This document shows, piece after piece, positions 1,704 through 59,796 of a DNA stretch of 64,000 nucleotides (position 1 is the first letter of the stretch; every line of letters starts with the position of its first letter). The stretch is from Candidatus Azobacteroides pseudotrichonymphae (GTDB lineage: Bacteria; Bacteroidota; Bacteroidia; Bacteroidales; Azobacteroidaceae). Made by a program: the position numbers and the translations under genes. Where the stretch lies: assembly GCA_002091395.1 (NCBI GenBank), contig AP017913.1, positions 302,001 through 366,000 of the forward strand, written 5' to 3'. The notes beneath the pieces were generated by a model, which did not search any database, was not told the DNA's origin, and saw nothing but the letters and a program-made list of their open reading frames with translations.

Positions 1704-2569
1704 ATGAAAGCAGTTGAAATAGATCACAATTCAGGATTTTGTTATGGTGTAAGAAAATCTATTGAAAAAATAGAGGAAGAGCTTATAAACAATAATGATG
1801 ACTTGTATTGTTTGGGTGATATTATTCATAATACACTTGAGATGGATCGACTAAGGAGAATGGGATTGAAAATAATTGAGCATGATGAATTAAGAAGAGT
1901 ATGTAACAAAAAAGTCTTATTTCGTACTCATGGTGAACCCCCATCAACTTATGAAATAGCTAATCAAAATAATATTCATGTTATAGATACAACCTGCCCA
2001 ACAATTTTGAGACTAAAAAAAAAATTCAAGTGATACATAAATATTCTTGTATAAAAGATTCTCAAATTTTGATATTTGGAGATCGTAACCATGCTGAAAT
2101 GGCTACTCTTGTTGGACAAACAAATGGAAGGGCGATTGTTATTACTTCTAAAAATGATCTACAACAAGTAAATTTTAGTAAAAAAATTTATTTATTCTCG
2201 CAGACAACTATGTCTGTGAATGATTTTAAAAAAATTATTATGGAAATAAAAAACAGAATGGTTTCTTCTATAATGTTTTTCCCATTTAATACAATTTGTC
2301 GACAAATACTTAATCGATTACATAATCTTTGTAAGTTTGCTTCGCAGCATAATCTTATCTTATTTGTGGCTGGAGAGAAAAGTTCTAATGGAAGAGTATT
2401 ACTAAATGAATGTAAAAGAATTAACCCAAACACTTATTTTGTATCAAATGAAAATGATATTCAGTCTAAATGGATTGATGGTATGGAATCAATTGGGATC
2501 TGTGGATCTACTTCTACCCCTAAATGGTTAATGGAAAAGGTTGCATTGTCGTTAATTTCGTATTATTGA
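1704..2569 (+). pseudogene. ispH: IspH (LytB), 4-hydroxy-3-methylbut-2-enyl diphosphate reductase, split by a -1 frameshift
   Basis: Iron-sulfur enzyme for the last step of the MEP isoprenoid pathway, making IPP and DMAPP. The 5' part (1704-2033) carries Cys13, the HN of LGDIIHN, FRTHGE and the cluster Cys98 in DTTCP. The 3' part, open in the other frame through 2569, carries GDRNHAE, the third cluster Cys in NTICRQ and the KSSNG active-site stretch. The frames meet at a run of ten A (2015-2024), where the first frame ends as KKKFK-stop. Eleven A would give KKKIQVIHK, restoring a continuous protein of about 288 residues, the normal family length. All catalytic residues survive, so decay is recent or the product is rescued by slippage on the A tract. 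ispD, from the same pathway, is intact in this window. Confidence 0.9.
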
Positions 2570-13516: not shown

Positions 13517-14122
13517 CTAAAATAAAAATTCTTCCGATCTACTATCTATATCTGATATACTGTCACTGTCCATTGAAAATGGTTTTTCATTGTCACCTGA
13601 ACTTACCAAAATAATTAATGTAGTACTAGCTGTTATACGGTCTCCTGCATTTAATTTGTTTCCATTTTTAGTTTCTAATCCTACAACTAAATTTTTATGC
13701 GGTCCACATTCTGTTCGTATTTGTACATTCTTAAATCCAATAGATTGTAGTAATAATTGTGCTTCCTGATGAGGTATGTATTTTATTTCTGGAATAGATA
13801 ATAGCGGTTGGTTAATAGAGTTTATTGTAAGGTAAATTGTTCTATTGGGCTTTACTTTAGTTCCTGCAGGTGGTATAGTTTCCAAAATACTTCCAGGAGT
13901 ATTTTCAGGGATAAAAACAGAATCTATTATACTGTAGTGTAATTTTTTTTTTTTTAGAATATTTTCTACTGTTTTTACTTGAAATCCTATTATATTGGGA
14001 ATTTTTACATATTGTCCATGTTGTGTATAAATTTCTAAATATTTCGCGACTGAAATAATAATAGAAAAAGAAAATAACAGTATCAGTCCACATTTAACGT
14101 AATATTTCGAAAATATACTCAT
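13517..14122 (-). CDS. PASTA domain membrane protein
   Basis: A 201-residue protein with one N-terminal membrane helix (about residues 8-28) followed by two PASTA repeats: the first begins at KIPNIIGFQ and ends near TIYLTIN, the second runs from LSIPEIKYIP to TLIILVSSG. PASTA domains bind peptidoglycan fragments or beta-lactams in other proteins. There is no kinase or transpeptidase domain, as in the Bacteroidetes family encoded just before rluD. The tail is short and rich in Ser and Asp. The reading frame crosses a run of thirteen A (plus-strand T at 13943-13955, encoding LKKKK) without breaking, which makes it a likely site of slippage. Confidence 0.85.
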   Translation of the reverse strand: MSIFSKYYVKCGLILLFSFSIIISVAKYLEIYTQHGQYVKIPNIIGFQVKTVENILKKKKLHYSIIDSVFIPENTPGSILETIPPAGTKVKPNRTIYLTINSINQPLLSIPEIKYIPHQEAQLLLQSIGFKNVQIRTECGPHKNLVVGLETKNGNKLNAGDRITASTTLIILVSSGDNEKPFSMDSDSISDIDSRSEEFLF

Positions 14123-14476: not shown

Positions 14477-16567
14477 TTAGCTAATTCTGGCTAGTTCAGT
14501 TTGATATTTTAGATTTTGTTGATCTAATTGTTGTTTTAATAAAATGTTTTGTGGGTTTTCTAGAGTAGGATCGGAGTTTAATATTTTAATTGCTAAATTG
14601 CGAGCACGAATTAATATTTGTTCGTCTTGAGAAAGATTCGCTATTTTCATGTGTAATATATAGCCGCTTTGTTTAGTTCCATCTATGCTGCCTGAACCAC
14701 GAAGTTTTAAATCTTCTTCTGCAATAACAAATCCATTATTAATTTTAGTTATTACATTAAGTCGTTTATAAGCATTATTTGATAATTTTGAAGGTGTTAC
14801 TAAAAAACATAATGATTGTTCACTACTGCGTCCTACTCTTCCTCTTAATTGGTGTAATTGTGATAATCCAAATCGATCTGCATTTTCAATAATTATAATT
14901 GAAGCATTCGGTATATTTATTCCAACTTCTATAACAGAAGTTGCAACCATTATTTGCGTAGAACCTGAAATAAATTTTTTTATTTCTGTGTTTTTTTCTT
15001 CCTGTTTCATTTTCCCATGAATCATACAAATATTGTATTCAGGAAATATATTTTTTATAGTATTAAACCCTTCTTTTACATTGTTTAAATCAATTTTTTC
15101 ACTATTTTCAATAATAGGGTAAACAATATATATTTGCTTGCCTATTTGTAATTGTTTTCTAATAAAATTGTATAATTCATGTTTTTTTTTTTCATAAATA
15201 TGAAAAGTTTTTACTGGTTTCCTTCCATATGGAAGTTCATCTATTATAGATATGTTTAAATCTCCATAAATTGTCATTGCTAGTGTACGAGGAATTGGAG
15301 TTGCAGTCATAACTAGTATATGTGGAGAAATTTTGTTTTTATCCCATAATTTAGATCTCTGTATTACTCCAAAACGGTGTTGTTCGTCTATTACAACCAA
15401 TCCTAAATTGTCAAATTTAACTTTGTCTTCAATTAGTGTATGTGTTCCAATTAAAATTTGTATTTCTCCGTTTTTTAATTTTTGTAAAATTTCTTCTCGA
15501 TTTTTTCTCTTTGTAGATCCGGTAAGCAAAGCTACTTTTATGTTTAAGTTTTTTACCAAGTGACTAATAGATTCGTAATGTTGTAGTGCTAAAATTTCCG
15601 TTGGAACCATAATTGAACCTTGAAATCCATTATCTATTGCTAAAAGAATAGATAGTAATGCTACCAAAGTTTTTCCACTTCCAACGTCTCCCTGTAATAG
15701 ACGGTTCATTTGTTTCCCTTTGTTTGTGTCATGTCTAATTTCTCGAATTACTTTTTTTTGTGCATTAGTAAGCTCAAAAGGAAGATTTTTTTTGTAAAAA
15801 TTATTAAAATAGTTTCCTACTCTTTTAAAAAAAAAACCACTAAGATGTTTTTCTCTATTTTTTGTAACAGATAAAATGTTTAGTTGTAGATAAAAAAGTT
15901 CTTCAAATTTTAAACGATATTTTGCTTTTTCTAATAAGTCATTAGATTTTGGGAAATGAATATTTCGAATTGCTTCATCTAAGTTTATTAAATTATAGTC
16001 GTTTATAATTTCGTTATTTAGTGTTTCTTGTATTTTAGTACTGTCTAATATTTGTATAATAATTTGTTTTATAGCGTGAGAGTGCAAAGTGACTTTTTTC
16101 ATTTTTTCTGTTGTATTGTATTGTCCGTGTATTCCAAGCTTTTTTTCATGAAATTTATTTTTTAGTTCTAATTTTGGATGAATAATTGTAATTTGTTTTT
16201 TAAACAAATTTTGTTTGCCGAACAAAATATATTCTATTCCTATTTTATATAAATATGGAATATGTGAAAATTTTTTGAACCAAATCAATTTTATGTTTCC
16301 TGTATTGTCATTAAAAATAGCAGTTAATCGTTTAGAATTTCCTTTTCCTTCATATTTATAATGGAGTATTTTCCCTTTTAATTGAATATAAGTCGTTTTA
16401 TTTTTAATATCACTTATTTTGAAAATTTTACTTCTGTCTATATACTTGTATGGAAAGTAATAAATCATGTCTTTAAGAGAAATTACGTTAATTTCTCTTC
16501 TAAGAATTTCGGCTTTTTGTGATCCAATGCCATGTAAATGTGTTATTTTTATATGATTTATTTCCAT
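14477..16567 (-). CDS. recG: ATP-dependent DNA helicase RecG
   Basis: Branch-migrating helicase that regresses stalled forks and processes recombination intermediates. The N-terminal wedge and OB-fold region (to about 250) is followed by the helicase core: GDVGSGKT at 293-300, DEQH at 394-397, VMTATPIPRTLAMT, and motif VI LRGRVGRSSEQS. The length of 696 residues is normal. The frame crosses a run of eleven A (plus-strand T at 15182-15192, encoding EKKKH) and stays intact. The start overlaps the ispD 3' end by 10 bases, so the two genes are translationally coupled. ruvA, of the partner recombination pathway, is at 33.4-34.0 kb. Confidence 0.97.
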   Translation of the reverse strand: MEINHIKITHLHGIGSQKAEILRREINVISLKDMIYYFPYKYIDRSKIFKISDIKNKTTYIQLKGKILHYKYEGKGNSKRLTAIFNDNTGNIKLIWFKKFSHIPYLYKIGIEYILFGKQNLFKKQITIIHPKLELKNKFHEKKLGIHGQYNTTEKMKKVTLHSHAIKQIIIQILDSTKIQETLNNEIINDYNLINLDEAIRNIHFPKSNDLLEKAKYRLKFEELFYLQLNILSVTKNREKHLSGFFFKRVGNYFNNFYKKNLPFELTNAQKKVIREIRHDTNKGKQMNRLLQGDVGSGKTLVALLSILLAIDNGFQGSIMVPTEILALQHYESISHLVKNLNIKVALLTGSTKRKNREEILQKLKNGEIQILIGTHTLIEDKVKFDNLGLVVIDEQHRFGVIQRSKLWDKNKISPHILVMTATPIPRTLAMTIYGDLNISIIDELPYGRKPVKTFHIYEKKKHELYNFIRKQLQIGKQIYIVYPIIENSEKIDLNNVKEGFNTIKNIFPEYNICMIHGKMKQEEKNTEIKKFISGSTQIMVATSVIEVGINIPNASIIIIENADRFGLSQLHQLRGRVGRSSEQSLCFLVTPSKLSNNAYKRLNVITKINNGFVIAEEDLKLRGSGSIDGTKQSGYILHMKIANLSQDEQILIRARNLAIKILNSDPTLENPQNILLKQQLDQQNLKYQTELARIS

Positions 16568-17238
16568 AGAGAAGTAATTAGTGTTTCTGCAATTATTAAA
16601 TCAATTGATGTAGTTATTTTTATATTTCTTTTACTCCCTTTAATCATTATTGGAATGCATGTTTTTTTTGGTTTCACTACAGAAATGTCGTCAGTAAAAT
16701 GACAAGAAAACGCTGTTGTTTTATAAGCATTGATCACTATATCAGATAAAAAAACTTGTGGGGTTTGAACTAAAAAAAAATTGGATCGATTTGCTAATAT
16801 AGTACTTTTGTATTTTTTTTGTACTAAAGTGTCTGTTACAGGAATCGCCGGATAAACTGCCTGTGCTTTTTTTGCGATTTTAAAAGCGTTTGTAATCAGT
16901 TTTTTACTAGTTAACGGACGAACTCCATCATGTATTGCCACTAAACATTTTTTTTTTACTAAAAATAATCCGTTTTTTACAGAATAAAATCGGTTTATTC
17001 CTCCTTCAACTATGTGGTGATCTATTTTGAAATTATATTGTTTGCAAAGATAATGCCAATATGTTTTTCGCTCTTTTGATAACACTAATATAATGTATAT
17101 TTCAGGATCATAATGGTAAAACGCTTCGATTGTATGCATTAATACAGGTTTCCCATTTAGTAAAAGAAATTGTTTAGGAATTGTTGTTTTCATTCGTACA
17201 CCTTTTCCACCTGCTACTATAATAACATATTTTTTCAC
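16558..17238 (-). CDS. ispD: 2-C-methyl-D-erythritol 4-phosphate cytidylyltransferase
   Basis: Third enzyme of the MEP isoprenoid pathway, forming CDP-methylerythritol from CTP. The CTP-binding N-terminus IIVAGGKGVRM with IPKQF (K22), the block AIHDGVRPLT at 101-110, TDTLVQ and TPQVF are all typical. At 226 residues it matches the family. It begins a minus-strand run (ispD-recG) and is preceded by a 1.8-kb gene-free region. Its intact state argues that the MEP pathway is still in use, which bears on the frameshifted ispH. Confidence 0.95.
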   Translation of the reverse strand: MKKYVIIVAGGKGVRMKTTIPKQFLLLNGKPVLMHTIEAFYHYDPEIYIILVLSKERKTYWHYLCKQYNFKIDHHIVEGGINRFYSVKNGLFLVKKKCLVAIHDGVRPLTSKKLITNAFKIAKKAQAVYPAIPVTDTLVQKKYKSTILANRSNFFLVQTPQVFLSDIVINAYKTTAFSCHFTDDISVVKPKKTCIPIMIKGSKRNIKITTSIDLIIAETLITSLWK

Positions 17239-19061
17239 AATTTTTATTAAAATTTTTATAAAGACATTTTTAATATTAAAATTAAAATGAAAATGAAAAT
17301 ATGAAAAACTATTAATTATATCTGCATATAATTTTTAAAATTCAAAATAAAAAACAAATTATTAACAAATAATTGTATGAGTTTTAAAATGTACTTACAT
17401 TATAAGTTCAATTATATTTTACATCAGTTCGAATTTATAGTTCTAATTCTATTATCTATATTTTAATAATTGTATATCTTTAATGAAAAGAAAGATTTGA
17501 TGTTTTTATTTTGAATTTTAAAAATTTTGTTAAAAAATTATACAAAGCGACATAATTAATTTTCATTAAGATGAAAATTAAAGATATAGAGTAGAATTTA
17601 CTTATTAAATCTTGAATATTTTATATTATGAGTGTAATTTTTGTTCCATTGTAGTAGTAAAAATAAAAATATTAAAAATGTAACTATTCAAATTATGTAC
17701 AATATTATTGTACGTATGCTGTATTAAGCAAAATATGTTTTAAAGTATTTTACATTATTTTTAACGTTGTGTTAATTTATTCAAAAATCAAGTTTTTTTG
17801 AAAAAAATTAAGGCAATAGTTATTTTTTAATAGATAGATATTGCGTTTATAGTAAAGAGAGTTAAAGAATATCACAAACAAAAAATGTTAATAAATTTTA
17901 AATTTAACAATAAAAAATTATGATTTTAAAATGATTTTTCAGTGTATACTAAATTTAATTTTTTGTTGAGAATTAAAATATATATTCGTTGATTTAATCA
18001 GAAATCTAAAAGTTATGAGTGCAAGTAATCAATATTTTAATTTTCAAATTAATTTTGATTACTATTAATATTCAAGGTGTTTTTATGAAAATTATTTGTA
18101 CTACATAAACTTTTTAGTTTGTGATAATTATTTAATAACAAAATGGGAAAATTTTAAAATTAAAATAACATCATATTAATGATTACGATAAAGATTAAAA
18201 TTTCATTGATCTTAGAAAATGTTAAAACACATATATTTTATAGTAAATTAAGTAAATAAGTGAATGTTAATTTTAAATTGAAAAATATTAAAATTTTTAT
18301 TTTGTTGATTTTGATGTATGGTAAATATTACAAATTTTTGAAAAAATTTGATTAGTAGTTCTTTTTCTATAGTAAATTATGATTTGCTTTTCAATATTTG
18401 TTGTGAAAAAATATTATTTGTTATAATTGTCGTTTTATTGCTATGTTAACACATGCTTTTTAGAAACATCATCTTAATATTAAGTATAGATTTTTTATCG
18501 TTTGGTTCAAATATTATATTATTTAATATTGGGGTGATGTGTTGATGTGTTAAATGAATCTACACTCATTATTATGATATTAATAATTTATGTTTTAATT
18601 GAGTTTGTTATTAAATTTAATGTGATGGCTGGGGCATGTAACTAATCAAAATTTTTGTTATAAATCTAAAATAATAGTTGCTAATTTGTGATTTAAGATG
18701 TGAAATAAAAACATAAATTTTTGATTTCACTTTATTATGTGTCAGGGATTATATAATTAGTTAAATTGAAGTTTGTGATTTTTAGTTTTGAGTGTTTATA
18801 AAATGATTGTAATGTAATGTTGATTTGTGAATTGTAGAGAAATCAAATGTTTACTTATGTTATAAGTTAGATTGCGTTATTAAAGTATTAATCCCATTTC
18901 AATAGATAATATTGTTATAATTTTTTAATGTAAAAAATATAAAATAAGATTCTTTTGAAGAAATTTGTTGATTTACTTAAGAATTTTGATTTTTGTTTTT
19001 AGATTAAATGATGATTTATATGGGAGTAAATTTCGTCATAAATTAATGATATTGAAAATGT
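17239..19061. other. Long gene-free region between divergent ispD and speA
   Basis: About 1.8 kb of very AT-rich DNA without an open frame that I can credit. Structures seen are a hairpin at 17556-17581 (11-bp stem, arm TTAATTTTCAT, loop TAAG) and an interrupted stem at 18026-18061. A short G-rich patch near 18625-18640 stands out from its surroundings but matches no RNA I recognise. The region probably holds decayed genes plus the promoters of ispD and speA. Confidence 0.55.
17556..17581. repeat. Inverted repeat (11-bp stem, 4-base loop)
   Basis: TTAATTTTCAT and its exact reverse complement flank the loop TAAG. It lies about 320 bases upstream of the ispD start, with no gene on either side for hundreds of bases and no long T run following. 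It could be a relict terminator of a lost gene or a regulatory site. Confidence 0.4.
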
Positions 19062-22990: not shown

Positions 22991-23956
22991 ATGTCAAAAG
23001 TTTTAGTTGGCTCAATCGAGTCTTTTAGTCTTTTCAAAAAAAAAAAGAGAAAATCTCTTTTTTCTAAAATAGGAGTGGTTGGTGCTGGTAGAGACGGTAG
23101 AAATATTATTTGTTTGACATCATCTTCAGGGTTAGAAGTTGTTTTCGTAGAGGTTAGCAAAAAAAGAGTTGATTTTGCTTTTAGAAAAATTAGCGATGAA
23201 TTAGATAATAAAATAGAGAATTGGGGATTAACAGAAACGGAAAAACGAACTATACTAGGAAGAATTAAAGGTTCTATAAATTATACTGATTTAAAGGATT
23301 GTGATTTTGTTATAGAGTGTATTCGTTATGATGATGAGACTGGTAAAAGAAGTACTGAATTACGAAAAGATGCTTTTAAAAAAATAGAACAGGTTGTTCG
23401 TGCTGATGCTATTATTGCAACTAATGCTACAACTGTCATTATTAGCGAACTTGCTTCTGAATTAATACATAAAGGGCGTTGTGTAAGTTTTCATTTCCCT
23501 ATTGCTCATGCTGATGCACGTATATTAGAAGTTGTAAAAGGCATGTATACTTCTGAAGAAGTGTACAATAAAATACTTTTATTTGCAAAATTGATAAATT
23601 ATAAAATAATTGAAGTAAGTGAGAGTAATGGGTTGGTTAGTTTACGCTTAATGGTTGTTTTGCTAAACGAGGCATGTCAGATGGTTCTAGAAAATGCTTC
23701 TTCTATGAAAAATATAGATTATTTGACAGAAATTGTTTACGGAATGAGAATTGGAATTTTTAAAATGGCTGACACAATTGGTATAGAAAAAATAGTTCCG
23801 CTTATGGAAAGTATGTTTGATGAGTATGGAGATAAAAAATACAAACCTTCGTCTCTTTTGTGGAGACTTTATAGAACACAACAATTAGGAATGCATAGTG
23901 AGAAAGGTTTTTATATTTATGAAAATGGTAAAATAGTAAAGCCTAATATTGAATAA
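22991..23956 (+). CDS. 3-hydroxyacyl-CoA / 3-hydroxybutyryl-CoA dehydrogenase family protein
   Basis: Predicted NAD-dependent oxidoreductase acting on 3-hydroxyacyl-CoA. A lysine-rich leader is followed by the Rossmann motif [12 protein letters not shown] (about residues 27-38), the FVIECIR segment, [14 protein letters not shown], and the SFHFPIAHA block that corresponds to the catalytic His region. The C-terminal helical dimerisation domain ends with [11 protein letters not shown]. The 321-residue size and lysine-rich leader resemble a Bacteroidetes subgroup usually annotated as 3-hydroxybutyryl-CoA dehydrogenase. The true substrate is unknown, and no thiolase or crotonase gene is nearby. 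It overlaps no gene in practice, since coaD starts 10 bases after it. Confidence 0.82.
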
Positions 23957-33983: not shown

Positions 33984-36900
33984 TTAATTTATTTTAACTG
34001 TACATCCACCAAGCCATTTTTTAGCTTCATCTACAGAGATGTTTTTTTTTTTTGCATAGTAAGACAATTGAATACTATCTATTTCTCCAATATGAAAATA
34101 TTTTGCTTTTGGGTGAGCTATATACATGCCAGCAATAGATGCAGTAGGGCAAATTGCTCCATTAGGCGTTAGTTTTACTCCTATTTTCCACATTTTTAGT
34201 AAGTCGTCTATAATAAAATTAAACGAAATGTCCGGATTGGCTGCATAACCTGATGCTGGACGGATTCCTTGGTATGGAATTTTTAATAATTCTTTTGGAT
34301 GGAAAGATTCATTTGGAGCATATCCCCAATATTTTTTACGAACTTTTTCATGCAAATATTCAGCAGCTGCTTCTGCCATGTGATTTCGTAAAATTTGTTC
34401 TAACATACTTTTGTATGTATTTTCTGAAGAATTGATATTCGATCCTGCTGTTACAACAAAAAAACCTATATAATCACCAATAGGATTAATGAAATCAACC
34501 AAAGATTTATAAATATTATCTTCTCTTTTTTTTTGTTGTCTCAGTAAAGGAATGTTTCTATTTTTTATTATTAATGATTCGTTTTTTACTTTTACAGGGT
34601 AAAATCCAATAATTGCACGAATCATTTGTGGATCACTTTTGATCAACGTAGATAATAATTTTTTCGCTTCATTTATTAGATGAATTGCTTTTGTTAATTT
34701 ATTTTGCTGATCTACTTGTACTTGGTTTTCCACTAGTATAGGGAATGCATATTGTATTGGGAATTTCCATGTTGTCAGAAAAGCTCCCCAGTTAATGTAT
34801 GGTAGAATATTTTTTATTTGAATAAAATTCAAAATTTTTGTTCCTTCTATTATTGGTTTAGGAGTATTATATTCTGCATGATTTATTTTTAATGAATGTT
34901 TTCTGGCATAATCAAATGGAACAAGTTCATTTGAATTGTTTGCATTTTGTCGTAAAAAACTATATGTATCTTTTATTTCTTTTATGTAATTATTTTTATT
35001 TGATGAATGTAATAATTTATTAACAGTTAAAACTGCTTTTGAAGCATCTGTAACATGAACAACTGCTCCATTGTATAACGGAGCAATCTTTAAAGCAGTA
35101 TGCAGTTTAGAAGTGGTTGCTCCACCAATTAATAATGGGATAGACAATCCAGCCTTTTCCATTTCAGAGGCAACTACTGACATTTCTTTTAAACTTGGGG
35201 TAATTAATCCACTCAATGCTATTATATCTACTTGATATTTTTTTGCCTTTCTAATAATTTCTTCAGATGGGACCATTATTCCTGCATCTATAACTTCATA
35301 ATTATTACAAGATAAAATTGCACATACAATATTTTTTCCAATGTCATGTACATCACCTTTAACTGTGGCAAATAATATTTTACCTGATTTATTAAATACA
35401 TTTTTTTTATTTTCAATAATATAAGGTTGTAAAATAGTTACTGCTTTTTTCATTATACGGGCTGTTTTTACTAACTGTGGTAAAAATATTTTGCCCTCAC
35501 TGAATAGGTCACTTACCGTATTTATTCCGTCCATTAAAGGTTGATCTATAATATTTATTACCTGTGGAAATATTTTTATAGCTTCTTGCAGGTCTGTTTT
35601 TAAAAAATCGTCAATGCCATTAATAATAGAATATTTTAGTCGTTCTATTACAGAAAAAGTTCGCCATTCATTTTTATTTTCTTTTTTACTAGGCGAAATT
35701 GTTTTTTTTTGTATATATTTTATCAAATTTTCTACTGTAGATTGAGAACAATTAAATAACATATTTTCAATTAATTTGATTAATGATAATGGAATATCTT
35801 TTAAATCAAAATTTCTGTTTGGATTTAGAATTCCCATGTCCATTCCTGCATTAATTGCATGAGAAATGAATACAGAATGAATGGCTTCCCTTAAATAGTT
35901 GTTATTACGAAAAGAAAAAGATAAATTACTTATTCCTCCAGACACTTTAGCAAAAGGCAAATATTTTTTTATCCATTTAATTGTTCTAATAAAATCTGTA
36001 GTATAATTACAATCTACTTCCAATCCTGTAGCAATTGCTAATATATTTGGATCGAATATAATATCTGATGGTTGAAATCCAATTCCATTTGTTAATAATT
36101 TATACATGCGTTCACAAATAGTTATTTTTCTGTCGAAATCAACTGCTTGTCCTTTTTCATCAAAAGCCATAGCAACAACTGCTGCTCCATAGAATTTTAT
36201 TTTTTTTGCTTTGTTTAGAAAATCATTCTCTCCATTTTTTAAACTAATGGAATTAACAATAGATTTTCCTTGTAAGCATTTTAATGCTGTTTCTATGACA
36301 TTCCAATCTGAACTATCTATCATGATAGGTACTGATGCAGTAATTGGATCTGAAGTTATAAAATTTAAAAAAGTAGTTATTTCGTGAGCACTATTCAATA
36401 AGCTATCATCCACATTAATATCTAATATTTTTGCATTATTTTCCACTTGATTGCGTGCAATTTTTAAGGCTTCTTCATATTTTTTTTCTTGGATTAATCG
36501 CAAGAATTTTCGACTTCCAGCAACGTTACAGCATTCTCCGATAATGATAAAATTTGGATTTTTATTTGGTTTTTTACAATTCGAATTTGTAGTAGAAATC
36601 TGTAAAGTTTCTAGTCCAGAAAGTGTTAATTCATAATTTTTAATAAAAGGTGTACGTATAGGTTTTTTGCATTTTTTAACTAAATTAGCGATTGCGCTAA
36701 TATGTTCTGGTGTTGTTCCACAGCAACCACCGATAATATTTACTAAACTTTCGTTTATGTATTCATAAACCTGATCTGCCATCATTTTGGGACTTTCGTC
36801 ATATTCTCCTAGAGCATTTGGTAATCCTGCGTTAGGATAAGCACTTATATAACAATGTGCTATTTGTCCTAATTTTTTAAGAAATGGCTTCATAGATTTT

Positions 36901-37640: not shown

Positions 37641-37788
37641 AAGTTTTTAAAAAAAGCTAAAAATTTAATTCTAGTATTATGTTTAGTAATATAATTTTAA
37701 TTTTAAAAAGCATGTTGTTAATTGAATAATTAATGAATTGAAGTTATTAATTATAAAGTTTATATAAGAATAAGGTTATGTCTAGCTA

Positions 37789-37812
37789 TAATAATAATAA
37801 TAATAATAATAA
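37789..37812. repeat. (TAA)8 microsatellite
   Basis: Eight uninterrupted copies of TAA, about 150 bases upstream of the metH start codon (metH is on the minus strand). Copy number could vary between cells. Confidence 0.85.
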
Positions 37813-39249
37813 ACATTTATATTAATATGAAAGGATTAGTTAAGTTATGCTAAGTACTTATAAATATGCTTTTCAATCAAAAATTGTTTCATAAATCCGA
37901 AACATATATTTCCTGATTTGTAATGAGTTTAATATTTTAAATACGAAGTTTTTTACTAAAAATTAAAATATATACCCAAATATAGATTTTGTTTGAACGA
38001 ATAGTCATTATCATTTTTAATTTTTTTTGTAAAAATGTGAATTTTATTTATCATGAAGATATATGTGAGCAAAAATAAAATTATAATTAATTACTACTAC
38101 TTTTATAAGTAGCAAAACTATAAAACAATTACAATAGCAATATTAATTTAAATTTTAGTGTATTATTTCATAAATATAGTTGAACTTATAATTAACATGA
38201 AAATGTTCCATTTAGTTTAGAATGATGCATACTAAAATTTAAAATTTTTTAGCTTTTTCTAACTAATGACAAAATAAAAGAAATAAAAAATATATTATCG
38301 TCAAATAATGTTATAAATATTATTTTTTATTAATATTTGCTATTTATCATATATGATTAATTTTTTGCTAAAAATTTAGATTTTTGATTATAAATTTTAG
38401 AAAAAATTAGTATGTAGTTAGTAAAATTTGTGTTCAATAATAAAAATAATTAAGAAACAATAAATTTGTGACGGTATAATGCATTGGTAAAATATATTTT
38501 GAGTTAATGAAATGTTAGTAATTAAAAAATAAGAAGTTTTTACTAATTTTTTAAAATTATTGTGTTGTGTCCTCAATATTGAGAAAAAATTAATATTTGT
38601 CGAATATTATTTTGTTTTTGTATTAGTGCTGTTTTTAAAGAAAGATCAATAAAATTTATTGAGTAATGTGTTATAAATGTTTCCAACATTATTAAATATG
38701 AACAGAGTAAAATATTGTAATGCATATTTTGAGAAAATAAATAAACAATACTAAGTGTATTTAGTCATATAATAATTTATTATGCAATATTTAGAATTAA
38801 AATTAATGTTATTTATACTTATCATGTAGTGTATTATTTTATAAAGAAAGAAAAGTTTGAAAGCATATAAAATATTTTAGATTTGAAAATCTATTTTGAG
38901 TTTCAAGAAGTTATTATACATGACGATTTTAAATAAACGATAGCATAAATTATTGTTAAATATTATTTAGTCTACTAAATAGTAAAAATAAAAATTGGCG
39001 TTACAAATTTTGTTCAATTTTAAAATTGATATCCTATAACTATTAAATATCTTGAAATAGATTTCCAAAAAAATATTAATTATGTTGCAGGTTATTATAA
39101 ATTGAGTATTCGGTGTTTTTAATTTTATATTAAAAAGGTTTTATTGAGTTTTTTAACCATTTTATTTTCTATAATATTGTATCATATTTTTAATATTCAT
39201 ATTAAACTTTTGTATAGTTTTGTTTTTTGATAAAATTTTACTTTAGTGG

Positions 39250-39270
39250 AGCATACTATGATAGTATGCT
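39250..39270. repeat. Operator-like 21-bp palindrome
   Basis: AGCATACTAT and its exact reverse complement ATAGTATGCT flank a single central G. It is richer in G and C than its surroundings and lies in a gene-free stretch, 317 bases beyond the 3' end of tRNA-Leu. It could be a regulator site left from a lost gene, or a short terminator stem. Confidence 0.4.
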
Positions 39271-39586
39271 ATTTAATTTTAATTTAATTACCCTTTTGTT
39301 TTAATTATATGTTATAAAATAGAATAATTATCATGGATAGAATTAAAATATATAATAAAGTTTTTAAATTTCTATTTTATAAATAATAATTTAAAAACTT
39401 GAAATTTTGTACAAAAATTGGTATAAACTAATTCTTACTTTTAAAATTCATAGAAATTTTAAACAAAGTATTTTATAGTTATATCAATTTAGTAATCTGA
39501 TGTTGTGTATAATAAAACAATTTATATTTATCAATTGTTACTATTTAATAGTTTTGTAATAAACAATATCTTGTTTATTAATTTTG

Positions 39587-39669
39587 TGCGGTTGGAGGGA
39601 CTCGAACCCTCACGCCTTTTAGGCCTCAGATTCTAAGTCTGAGACGGCTACCAATTACGTCACAACCGC
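39587..39669 (-). tRNA. tRNA-Leu, anticodon UAG
   Basis: An 83-base class II tRNA. Acceptor arms GCGGTTG and CAACCGC pair perfectly, with A as the discriminator base. The D-loop contains AATTGGTAG; the anticodon arm is TCAGA-CTTAGAA-TCTGA, giving anticodon TAG (plus-strand 39633-39635) for CUN codons. The long variable arm GCCTAAAAGGC and the T-arm GAGGG-TTCGAGT-CCCTC complete the fold. CCA is not encoded, so it must be added enzymatically, as is common in Bacteroidetes. It stands alone with gene-free DNA on both sides. Confidence 0.97.
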
Positions 39670-39923
39670 TTAATAATATTTCAAAAATTTTTTTTATAAA
39701 ATATTATGTATGTTTGTGTTCAGATCTTAGCTGTTTTTATACATTTTATTGTTGATATATACAAACAAAATAAATTAATTCGTTTTTATTTATGCTTTTA
39801 GATTACTATTAATTATGATACATGTGTAACAACATCTTCCACAATTATTAACATTCAAATAATAATATAAAATCAGCAATTATAATGATGTGCATTTTTT
39901 AAAAATCAAACTAAACAATGTAA

Positions 39924-39960
39924 AATAATTAGACATAAAAATTTTTTATGTCTAATTATT
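39924..39960. repeat. Inverted repeat with 18-bp perfect arms
   Basis: AATAATTAGACATAAAAA and its exact reverse complement are separated by one T. In RNA or cruciform form it would make a long hairpin. It is about 255 bases upstream of tRNA-Leu (minus strand) and has no gene close by. It could be a bidirectional terminator. Confidence 0.5.
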
Positions 39961-40091
39961 AGACTCCTAATTGTTAATCTTTACTTTTTTTAAGTAGACA
40001 TTTATATTTTGAATACTCAATTCAGACATTGTAGTAAAAAATTATAAGCATATTGTAAGTGAATAAGTTCCTATCAATTTATTGGTTTCTC

Positions 40092-40205
40092 ATGGTTTTT
40101 ATGGCAGAAAAAATAATTCTTGAAAGATTAGCCAAATCTGGTAGAAATAATATTTCTAATAACCACGAAATTTATGAGTTTTTAGTCATAAAAACAATAT
40201 TTTGA
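40092..40205 (+). other. Short open frame, possible gene remnant
   Basis: Thirty-seven codons, MVFMAEKIILERLAK followed by SGRNNISNNHEIYEF and a short tail. Compared with the surrounding DNA the composition looks protein-like (few runs, charged residues in a helical pattern), but I recognise no family. It may be the 5' remnant of a degraded gene or a chance frame. Confidence 0.2.
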
Positions 40206-40912
40206 TATTAAAATATAAAATTTATTTGTATTTAGTAATTAAATTTTTGAATTAAGACAAAAAATATTTAGTTCTTTAATAGAAGTATATTCGTTTAATA
40301 TCTTTAACTATTGATACGTATATAGTAGCTTATTTGACACTATCAATTAAAGCTATATCATGTTATTGATGTTTTATAACAATATAAATTACACTAAAAA
40401 TAGCGTCCAATGATATTATTTTTGACGTTAAATCATAATATTTAAAGATAGTATGAAATACTAGTAAAGTGTATGTATAGTAATATTTTGTGTTACAATA
40501 TTTTTCTAGAAAAATTAAAATAATGAATAAATAAATTCAAATACAAATATATGTAGTATATAAAAATGGTTTTTAGGTTAAACAACAATATTTTTCTTTT
40601 TAACAGTATATTGATATTAATCAAAAAATATGTTTTAATAAAAATCTTTTAGTATATTCATGTTATTATAGTTACTAACTCGTAGTTTTGATGTAGATGT
40701 TTTTGGTAAAAAAATTGTTAATAATTAGCTACAAATATTGTTACGTTATTTTCTATGTTAGTATTGTTTGTAGTACTTTAGATCAATCTGTTTAAGTGTT
40801 TTGTCAATTAATTTAAAAGTTTTTGATTTTTGTGTAAATTGCAATTGAATATGAAAGTTTTTACTGTATGTATTCTAAATACAGTTAACATGGTAATATA
40901 TATGATTTGGTC

Positions 40913-48230: not shown

Positions 48231-49499
48231 CTAAGATATTGAATCAAATCTAGTATAAGGAATTAATACTTTAGGAATTTGAATTCCTTTTTTAGTTTGG
48301 TTATTTTCTATTATAGCAGCAACAATTCTTGGTAATGCTAGAGCACTTCCATTTAGTGTATGGCACAAGTGTATTTTTTTATCTTTTCCACGATAGCGAC
48401 ATTTTAATCTATTAGCTTGGTAACTCTCAAAATTAGAAACTGAACTAACTTCTAACCATTGTTTTTGTGCTGCTGAATACACTTCAAAATCAAAAGTTAA
48501 AGCAGAAGCAAAACTCATATCACCTCCACAAAGTCGTAAAATACGCCATGGCAATTCAAGTTTTTCTATTATATTCTGTATATAATTTAACATTTCTTGT
48601 AAAGATTTATAAGAATGTTCTTGAGTATCAATGTGGATAATTTCTACTTTATCAAATTGATGTAAACGATTCAGTCCACGCACATTTTTCCCGTATGAAC
48701 CAGCTTCCCTGCGAAAACAAGCAGAGTAAGCTGTATTTTTAATTGGCAAATCCTTTTCATCTAAAATTATATTTTGATAAATATTTGTTAATGGGACTTC
48801 AGATGTTGGTATTAAATAAAGCCCATCTGTTGTACAATACATTTGATTACTTTTATCTGGTAACTGTCCTGTTTTATACGCGGAATCCATATTTATCATG
48901 TAAGGCGGTTGAATTTCTACGTAATTAGCTTCACGAGCACTATCTAGAAAAAAATTGACTAAAGCTCGTTGTAACTGAGCCCCTTTTTGTTTATATACTG
49001 GGAATCCACTTCCAGTGATTTTAGCCCCTAGTTCAAAATCAATTAGATTATATTTTTTGACTAACTCCCAATGTGGTAATGAACCTGAAGACAATGAAGG
49101 GATATGTCCACCACTCTTTTCAATTATATTATCTTTTGAATGTTTCCCCTCTGGCACTTGTTCTGATGGAAGATTTGGAATTTGATAAAGTAACTCTGTT
49201 AGCTTACACTCTGCTTTTTTTATTTGAAATTCTAATTGTTTAGAGTGTTTCTTTATAGAAACTACTTGTTTAAGAATTAATTCTAATTTTTTTTTCTCTC
49301 CAATTGTTATTAATTGTCTGGTAATTTTTGAAAGTGTTTTTAACTTAGAAAAATTTTTATCTAACAAGTTTTTATCAAATTTGAGTTTTTTGTTAGTTTC
49401 AATTACTTCTATAATAATATCATTGTTATGAAAATTTTTTTTTTTTAATTTATTTATTACTGTTTGTGTTTCATCTGTAATAGTTTTTAGTGTAAGCAT
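48231..49499 (-). CDS. serS: Seryl-tRNA synthetase
   Basis: Class II synthetase charging tRNA-Ser and tRNA-Sec. A long N-terminal coiled coil (about residues 25-100) binds the tRNA variable arm; the catalytic core shows TSEVPLTN, motif 2 FRREAGSYGKNVRGLNRLHQ, and motif 3 HTLNGSALALPRIVAAI. I chose the ATG giving MLTLKTITDETQ (422 residues), which matches Bacteroidetes homologues; the frame runs 11 codons further upstream. A run of twelve A (plus-strand T at 49435-49446, encoding LKKKN) is in frame. It follows rpmA by 42 bases on the same strand. Confidence 0.96.
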   Translation of the reverse strand: MLTLKTITDETQTVINKLKKKNFHNNDIIIEVIETNKKLKFDKNLLDKNFSKLKTLSKITRQLITIGEKKKLELILKQVVSIKKHSKQLEFQIKKAECKLTELLYQIPNLPSEQVPEGKHSKDNIIEKSGGHIPSLSSGSLPHWELVKKYNLIDFELGAKITGSGFPVYKQKGAQLQRALVNFFLDSAREANYVEIQPPYMINMDSAYKTGQLPDKSNQMYCTTDGLYLIPTSEVPLTNIYQNIILDEKDLPIKNTAYSACFRREAGSYGKNVRGLNRLHQFDKVEIIHIDTQEHSYKSLQEMLNYIQNIIEKLELPWRILRLCGGDMSFASALTFDFEVYSAAQKQWLEVSSVSNFESYQANRLKCRYRGKDKKIHLCHTLNGSALALPRIVAAIIENNQTKKGIQIPKVLIPYTRFDSIS

Positions 49500-49541
49500 A
49501 CTGTGTATTTTAAAACGAATTAATGGCATCAAAAATTAGTT

Positions 49542-49799
49542 TTACGTAACTAATTCTATAGAAACATAGGACCTATTGTTTTGTTTTTTCTTAAAAACAA
49601 CTTTGCCTTCGATAAGGGCGTATAAAGTATGATCTCTGCCAATGCCTACATTATTTCCAGGATGATGACGAGTTCCCCTTTGCCTAACCAATATACTTCC
49701 TGCTTTACAAACTTCTCCTCCGAAAATTTTAACACCCAATCTTTTACTGTGGGATTCTCTTCCATTTTTTGAACTACCAACTCCTTTTTTATGTGCCAT
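49542..49799 (-). CDS. rpmA: 50S ribosomal protein L27
   Basis: Peptidyl-transferase-proximal ribosomal protein. The start [20 protein letters not shown], then [20 protein letters not shown], then [20 protein letters not shown], are near-invariant L27 sequence. The length is 85 residues. It has no N-terminal extension of the kind cleaved in Firmicutes. It is paired with rplU, 20 bases upstream, as in almost all bacteria. Confidence 0.97.
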
Positions 49800-49819
49800 T
49801 ATTTATAATAATTATAGTA

Positions 49820-57945: not shown

Positions 57946-59796
57946 ATGAATAAAATTATAAATCGTTTTTCTTTTCGAAAGATATCTATTTTTGTAGTTA
58001 TTTATTTGGTTTTATTTATATACATCGCTAGACTTTTTAAGATACAAATATTAGATACAAAATATAAAGATTTAGCAGATAGCAATGCGTTTTTTAAAAA
58101 AATAAAATATCCATCACGTGGTATGATTTATGATAGAAAAAATAATTTACTAGCCTGTAATCAAGTTGAATCTAAACTTCGAATAGTCACTGAAGAGGTC
58201 AATAATTTAGATACAGTTGCTTTATGCAAAGTGGTAAATATTAGTTTGGATGATTGTAGAAAAAAACTAAACAACATTAATATTCATAGAAAATCAAAGC
58301 ATTATTCAAAAATTTTTTTAGATCGATTAGGAGAGCAAGAGTGTAGTAATTTTCGAAAAAATGAACATAAATTACCTGGATTTTATCTGGAAAATAAAAT
58401 TATTAGAAGATATATATATCCATGTGCTGCTCATGTGATAGGTTATGTTGCTGAGGTAACTAAGCAACATATTGCTAATAATCCTAATTATCAAATTGGA
58501 GATTATATTGGTCAAACAGGTGTTGAGTGTTCGTATGAAAAATATTTAAAGGGCAAAAAAGGGTTTGATTTTTTTTTACAAAATTCAAATGCTCATTTTG
58601 ATCATAGACAAAAATTAAAAATTCATAAGAATAATATTGTTCCATTGCCTGGGAAAGACGTAACTCTTTCAATTGATATTTCTTTGCAAGCTTACGGAGA
58701 AGAGTTGATAAAAAATAAATTAGGAACAATTATTATGATAGAGCCTAAAACAGGAGAAATTTTATGTATGCTTTCTTCTCCTACATATGATTTATCTTTT
58801 TTAGATTCTGAAAAACAACTTTATGAATCTATTTCTAGGTTAGCTAAAAATCCATATAAACCATTGTTTAACAGAGCTTTAAACGGAATTTATCCACCTG
58901 GTTCTATTTTTAAAATGGCACAAGGATTAGTGTTTCTGCAAGAGAAAATCATTACTCCTGGCACATTATATTCTTGCCGAAATGGATGGCCACTTGCTAA
59001 TGGGCATCCGTTATGTCATATTCATAAATCTCCTTTAACCTTAACATCAGCTATTGAACTAAGCTGTAATTCTTATTTTTGTTGGGGGTTTAAAAACATG
59101 ATTGAAAATAAAAAATATGGAACTATTCAAAATGCGTTGGATAAATGGAGAAATTTTATGTATGCGCAAGGGTTCGGAGAACAATTAGGTGTTGATCTTC
59201 CGTCAGAAAGAAAAGGAATGATACCAAATAGTCAATATTATGATAAATTATATAAAAAACGTTGGAATGCATTTTCAATCATTTCTATTGCTATCGGACA
59301 AGGAGAAATTGCACTTTCTCCTATTCAAATGTGTAATTTGGCGGCTTCTATTGCTAACAGAGGATATTTTTATATTCCTCATATTGCAAAAAAAATATCA
59401 AATTGTAGGTTGAATAGTTTGTATTTACATCCCAACTACACAGGTATAAATTCAAAATATTATGTGCCAATTATAGAAGGAATGCGTTTAGCTGTAACAT
59501 CTGGCACATGTAATTTAGCTAATATTCCTGATATAGCTGTGTGTGGAAAAACTGGTACTGCACAAAATAGTAAAAAAGATCATTCTATTTTCATGGGGTT
59601 TGCTCCAATGAATTCTCCGAAAATAGTTATTCTTGTGTTTATCGAAAATGGAGGATATGGGTCATCTTCTGCAGTTTTAATAGCGAGATTGATGATCCAA
59701 AAGTATTTTAAAAATACAATTCCAAATACTGACAAATGGATTGAAGATGACATTAAAAAATTAGTTATACTAAAATATGCTACTAAAAAAAACTAA
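57946..59796 (+). CDS. mrdA: Penicillin-binding protein 2 (transpeptidase)
   Basis: Class B PBP that cross-links peptidoglycan during elongation together with RodA. An N-terminal membrane helix (about residues 13-30) is followed by the PBP dimerisation domain and the transpeptidase domain with S320-x-x-K323 (PPGSIFKMA), SCN at 373-375 and KTG at 535-537, so the active site is complete. The length is 616 residues from ATG 57946. The 3' end overlaps rodA by 20 bases. It is separated from mreB only by a short spacer, mreC and mreD being absent. Confidence 0.95.
   Translation: MNKIINRFSFRKISIFVVIYLVLFIYIARLFKIQILDTKYKDLADSNAFFKKIKYPSRGMIYDRKNNLLACNQVESKLRIVTEEVNNLDTVALCKVVNISLDDCRKKLNNINIHRKSKHYSKIFLDRLGEQECSNFRKNEHKLPGFYLENKIIRRYIYPCAAHVIGYVAEVTKQHIANNPNYQIGDYIGQTGVECSYEKYLKGKKGFDFFLQNSNAHFDHRQKLKIHKNNIVPLPGKDVTLSIDISLQAYGEELIKNKLGTIIMIEPKTGEILCMLSSPTYDLSFLDSEKQLYESISRLAKNPYKPLFNRALNGIYPPGSIFKMAQGLVFLQEKIITPGTLYSCRNGWPLANGHPLCHIHKSPLTLTSAIELSCNSYFCWGFKNMIENKKYGTIQNALDKWRNFMYAQGFGEQLGVDLPSERKGMIPNSQYYDKLYKKRWNAFSIISIAIGQGEIALSPIQMCNLAASIANRGYFYIPHIAKKISNCRLNSLYLHPNYTGINSKYYVPIIEGMRLAVTSGTCNLANIPDIAVCGKTGTAQNSKKDHSIFMGFAPMNSPKIVILVFIENGGYGSSSAVLIARLMIQKYFKNTIPNTDKWIEDDIKKLVILKYATKKN

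Follow-up and report, generated by a model that had tools for sequence, protein, structure and literature searches.

An ispH gene split at an A10 tract, with five companion genes broken in the same way, in a Bacteroidales symbiont of a termite gut protist: plausible candidates for slippage-tolerated frameshifts

The window (the whole stretch of 64,000 nucleotides analysed, contig 1 302001-366000) comes from 'Candidatus Azobacteroides pseudotrichonymphae' ProJPt-1 and is part of its chromosome 1; the bacterium lives as an endosymbiont in Pseudotrichonympha, a gut protist of the termite Prorhinotermes japonicus (PMC5478533). The ProJPt-1 assembly is 99%-complete and consists of 7 contigs, with a chromosome 1 of 774,998 bp and a chromosome 2 of 139,924 bp; the sister genome used for comparison is that of phylotype CfPt1-2, with a contig of 1,114,206 bp. 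Five features of the window concern the isoprenoid genes:

1704-2033, plus strand: 5' frame of ispH, 109 aa, from ATG at 1704 to TGA at 2031-2033, with the Fe-S cysteines C13 and C98, and H42 and H76
2015-2024, plus strand: A10 tract with the -1 slippery heptamer A_AAA_AAA inside it; one further A would put both halves in the same frame
2024-2569, plus strand: 3' frame of ispH, conserved from ATT at 2024, with the stop TGA at 2567-2569
2030-2033, plus strand: GTGA, read from the sequence as a possible restart codon overlapping the upstream stop
16558-17238, minus strand: ispD, of the same pathway as ispH, an intact open frame

The two ispH frames match positions 2-97 (6.7e-28) and 104-263 (1.3e-44) of the 267 positions of Pfam LYTB, as well as complementary halves of one NCBIfam IspH equivalog model. 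Since they are parts of a single IspH profile, a chance pair of open frames is ruled out. The 3' frame keeps the HAE (His, Glu), QTT, NTIC (cysteine), SSN and STSTP motifs, and alignment to the solved IspH chains 3dnf and 4h4c shows that all three Fe-S cysteines, together with HAE, QTT, SSN and STSTP, are retained across both frames. The break lies just 3' of the second cluster cysteine, within the conserved LQKKI segment, and puts the cluster cysteines on different pieces. The A10 is preceded by CT (context agactAAAAAAAAAAttcaagtgatac, 2015-2024); apart from this break, the gene contains no stop or indel. The initial annotation had described ispH as two abutting frames divided at this tract, to be joined by one extra A. 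The frames, profile matches and conserved landmarks confirm the first point, and a gap-free alignment to CfPt1-2 with one more base in the tract bears out the second. The whole-genome search that it had proposed for another ispH revealed none in ProJPt-1, where the gene is single copy.

In CfPt1-2, the only sister genome compared, ispH is one open frame without the frameshift and has CAAAAAAAG at the tract site (codons CTA CAA AAA AAG ATT CAG). In the alignment of other members of the genus, the site is interrupted or has a shorter run. IspH is uninterrupted in 32 of the 40 relatives searched; elsewhere it is a short fragment in one genome or partial at a contig edge, or was not found, mostly in incomplete drafts, and no split IspH was seen among the 40. 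ProJPt-1 appears to have acquired its uninterrupted run by substitution, and in its consensus the run is now one A below what the joined frame needs.

The rest of the pathway is open. One open copy each of dxs (on contig 2 in ProJPt-1), dxr, ispE, ispF, ispG and uppS is present in both ProJPt-1 and CfPt1-2, while HMG-CoA reductase, of the mevalonate route, was not found in either genome. IspH is therefore likely still needed by ProJPt-1, as loss of the last MEP step alone makes little biochemical sense. This agrees with the earlier statements that ispD is intact and that the MEP pathway remains in demand, and gives no support to the escape offered alongside them, a supply of isoprenoids from the host or from a second pathway.

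The gene had also been taken as a lone case. However, a survey of 578 kb of sampled ProJPt-1 stretches (57% of the genome) for A or T runs of at least 8, later at least 6, at which one long open frame gives way to another, gave at least six conserved genes with the same type and direction of lesion. The survey detects only splits without further lesions. Besides ispH, these are:

menA (1,4-dihydroxy-2-naphthoate prenyltransferase): A12 at L062 3435-3446, equal to contig 1 369436-369447, 3.4 kb past the window; intact in CfPt1-2
coaBC: A10 at L113 16427-16436, split exactly between the CoaC and CoaB domains; intact in CfPt1-2
TPR-protein gene: A10 (T8A10) at L114 3616-3625; orthologue uninterrupted in CfPt1-2
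glucosaminidase-LysM gene: A16 at L119 12231-12246, split before the last LysM domain; 3' part without a CfPt1-2 match
aroC: A12 at L121 11071-11082; intact in CfPt1-2

All six genes are one A short on the sense strand and require the same shift (6/6, p = 0.03). For ispH, menA, coaBC, TPR and aroC, the CfPt1-2 orthologues are uninterrupted and the alignments are free of gaps with one base more in the run. Searches of the ProJPt-1 genome for second copies of the five companions returned just the two pieces of each. Among runs spanned by frames of 150 codons or more, 6 of 83 tracts of A10 or longer are broken compared with none of 408 tracts of A8-A9 (Fisher p = 2e-5; the rate is approximate, as the 83 include some non-genic frames). 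The control of 174 kb from CfPt1-2 contains 8 tracts of at least A10, none of them broken, a sample too small to differ from 6/83. Four other frame changes at tracts were ordinary gene junctions and were left out of the count; named here from sequence, they are a penicillin-binding protein/rodA-like pair at 59785-59792 of the window, leuB/purC-like at L057 7559, hisC/hisB-like at L125 18032, and glycosyltransferase/dihydroorotase-like at L126 15028.

All ProJPt-1 tract lengths derive from one consensus sequence, and its origin is relevant to how the pattern is read. The DNA was amplified by MDA from bacteria of single protist cells and assembled with SPAdes from PCR-free MiSeq libraries, at a k-mer coverage of 250x on chromosome 1, PacBio serving only for assembly structure and a check of circularity (PMC5478533). 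The lengths could be wrong or mixed, either through undercalling during amplification or assembly, or through a population in which many cells have A11 under a consensus of A10. Homopolymer undercalling by MDA and SPAdes would be one-directional and length-dependent, and would thus yield the same one-short pattern as real deletions. However, the libraries were PCR-free and deeply covered, and 77 of the 83 tracts of A10 or longer are in frame, sense-strand A11 and A13 runs of the window among them. An Illumina consensus at A10 is, moreover, usually right. Erroneous or mixed lengths are thus considered rather unlikely.

If the lesions are real, the genes may be dead or alive. Pairwise comparison of ProJPt-1 with CfPt1-2 gives a dN/dS of 0.165 upstream and 0.186 downstream of the break in ispH, 0.36 and 0.31 in menA, 0.20 and 0.19 in coaBC, 0.30 and 0.31 in the TPR gene, and 0.11 and 0.16 in aroC, with synonymous sites near saturation (dS near 1), such that a very recent lesion would stay invisible. 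These values fall inside the range of collinear intact genes (0.09-0.42), and both halves of the five comparable split genes are similarly constrained. The extra stops, indels and relaxed constraint in both halves that mark old pseudogenes are not seen in ispH. Actual gene decay does occur in ProJPt-1, and looks unlike the clean splits: a glycoside hydrolase relic at L057 14323-14834 is full of stops, and its CfPt1-2 counterpart is a 568-codon open frame.

This eroded relic, a sign of ongoing genome reduction, lends some weight to the view that all six split genes, ispH included, became pseudogenes recently and that their function has been lost or is supplied externally. So does the N-terminal half of IspH (window 1704-2014), where 20 changes are specific to ProJPt-1 and only 1 to CfPt1-2, as opposed to 19 and 13 in the C-terminal half and 50 and 27 in Der. 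The two halves differ in this respect with Fisher p = 0.004, uncorrected for the several comparisons looked at. The ProJPt-1 changes include A75T and A96T, which adjoin active-site residues, and the acceleration, confined to ProJPt-1 and to this half of IspH, hints at altered constraint; as decay of a dead gene should strike both halves, it is not simply an argument for death. Against recent loss, the six genes show no second lesion across 2220 codons, in a search that demands clean frames. Were all six dead, the 95% upper bound would be ~0.008 substitutions per site since death, set against a dS near 1, although this bound is biased by the fact that only clean splits can be found. The retention of the remaining MEP genes and uppS also speaks against it, and to our knowledge no import of IPP or DMAPP has been established for such bacteria. 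Recent loss of function is accordingly regarded as improbable.

The explanation favored here, with a probability of roughly 0.6, is that ispH and the five others carry real one-A deletions that are tolerated via slippage, as in Buchnera and Blochmannia; the DNA consensus would then be correct, slippage would occur and enough IspH would be made. In this scheme, AT-biased substitutions would have removed interruptions such as CAAAAAAAG, as seen in CfPt1-2, leaving a long pure A run in ispH from which replication slippage next deleted one A. The gene would still be in use, with a fraction of IspH made at full length: RNA polymerase may add an A on the run, ribosomes may slip by -1 on A_AAA_AAA, or both, either of which would restore the frame. 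The same process would have struck at least five other conserved genes. Judged from sequence comparison, slippage rescue of ispH is a plausible reading and the one that appears best supported.

The direction of the lesions fits such a process. When transcription slips on an A run it mostly adds bases, and a -1 slip of the ribosome moves the frame likewise, so both would restore a lesion that is one short. Among transcription errors of Buchnera, homopolymer runs account for 151 of the 157 insertions, against only 16 of the 57 deletions (PMC5574713). Such an insertion bias predicts tolerated lesions that are one short, which matches all six. For specific frameshifted genes of aphid and ant endosymbionts, corrected transcripts are reported to make up 12-50% (PMC5009743, review). 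Against rescue, frame-restoring transcription errors were not found in Buchnera (PMC5574713), and the E. coli RNA polymerase slips more readily on T runs than on A runs (PMC6260861). A bolder reading, somewhat less likely than not, is that one-short genes are tolerated genome-wide in ProJPt-1: transcription or translation would be so strongly insertion-biased on long A runs that deletions in A10 or longer tracts of essential genes persist, insertions are purged and the set of split genes (ispH, menA, coaBC, aroC and others) becomes one-directional.

Two other ways of making a working enzyme were weighed against slippage tolerance. In the first, the frames would be translated separately through the GTGA restart at 2030 and the pieces would assemble into IspH. 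The overlap of GTG with the TGA stop suits this idea, as do the position of the break just beyond the second cluster cysteine and the division of coaBC between its two enzyme domains. However, no ATG, GTG or TTG is present at the corresponding place in the coaBC, TPR, aroC and menA junctions, so that the restart in ispH is probably accidental. Relatives show no split IspH, the cluster cysteines would be parted between the pieces, and the conserved LQKKI segment is interrupted; a split enzyme is highly improbable. The second is programmed -1 ribosomal frameshifting aided by dedicated stimulators, of the kind known from E. coli dnaX, for which the slippery A_AAA_AAA lies in the correct phase within 2015-2024. 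Here, the RNA 3' of the tract shows no significant structure (z -1.5 and +0.9), an upstream purine-rich SD-like element is not evident, and CfPt1-2 lacks the A run, which is not conserved in other relatives either. Furthermore, in E. coli A_AAA_AAA is far less shifty than A_AAA_AAG (PMC5009743). A dedicated signal of this kind would be very surprising.

Genes with poly(A) frameshifts that are rescued by transcription slippage have been described in Buchnera and Blochmannia (Tamas et al., 2008; Wernegreen et al., 2010; as cited in PMC3017870 and PMC5009743), and in Blochmannia vafer dxs, of the same pathway as ispH, is frameshifted (PMC3017870). ProJPt-1 shares with these insect symbionts an obligate endosymbiotic life, an AT-rich reduced genome and a gene that carries a one-base lesion within a long run of A but is otherwise intact and without accelerated decay. 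In contrast, it is a Bacteroidales symbiont of a protist and not of an insect bacteriocyte, its lesions are all six in one direction, rescue is putative, and the ispH frameshift is not common to the sister species. The parallel with insect endosymbionts drawn by the initial annotation plausibly holds for the class of gene, by tract, orthologues and constraint, but not for the host, a gut protist in place of an insect cell. Like the slippage-tolerated genes, ispH is single copy, has its sole lesion in an A run of at least about nine, has uninterrupted orthologues and is normally constrained downstream. It is plausibly a further example of this already known class, a placement strengthened by its five companions.

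Similarly, homopolymer-frameshifted genes of the flavobacterial (Bacteroidota) endosymbiont Candidatus Walczuchella monophlebidarum are possibly still functional (PMC3971599); that report only raises the possibility, whereas for ProJPt-1 there are figures for the direction of the lesions, the tract length and the constraint. In dnaX of Thermus thermophilus, transcription slippage on an A9 run generates transcripts mixed in length and frame (PMC1088944). Both products are useful there, whereas only the corrected frame of ProJPt-1 ispH appears to be, and its run is not conserved. If the favored explanation is true, a protist-dwelling Bacteroidales symbiont has independently reached the state of insect symbionts, in which infidelity of the polymerase or ribosome keeps damaged essential genes working, and its one-directional lesions make it possible to test whether a slippage bias influences which mutations survive. 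It would also be a warning that, under automatic annotation, the MEP, shikimate, CoA and menaquinone pathways of ProJPt-1 come out as broken.

Elsewhere in the window, no conserved frames were recognized in the intergenic gaps, mostly of ~18-20% GC, with the exception of a short ribosomal-protein ORF in the gap at 49533-49819. Two of the gaps, long, non-coding and of ~18% GC, are possibly relics (17239-19061 and 37641-40906, the second with a tRNA-Leu at 39586-39669). Intact frames with coding-strand runs of A11-A13, at 864-874, 13943-13955, 23036-23046, 34042-34053 and 49435-49446, are candidate slippage sites; der and the gene at 13517-14122 are examples of in-frame genes that carry runs of 11-13 A.
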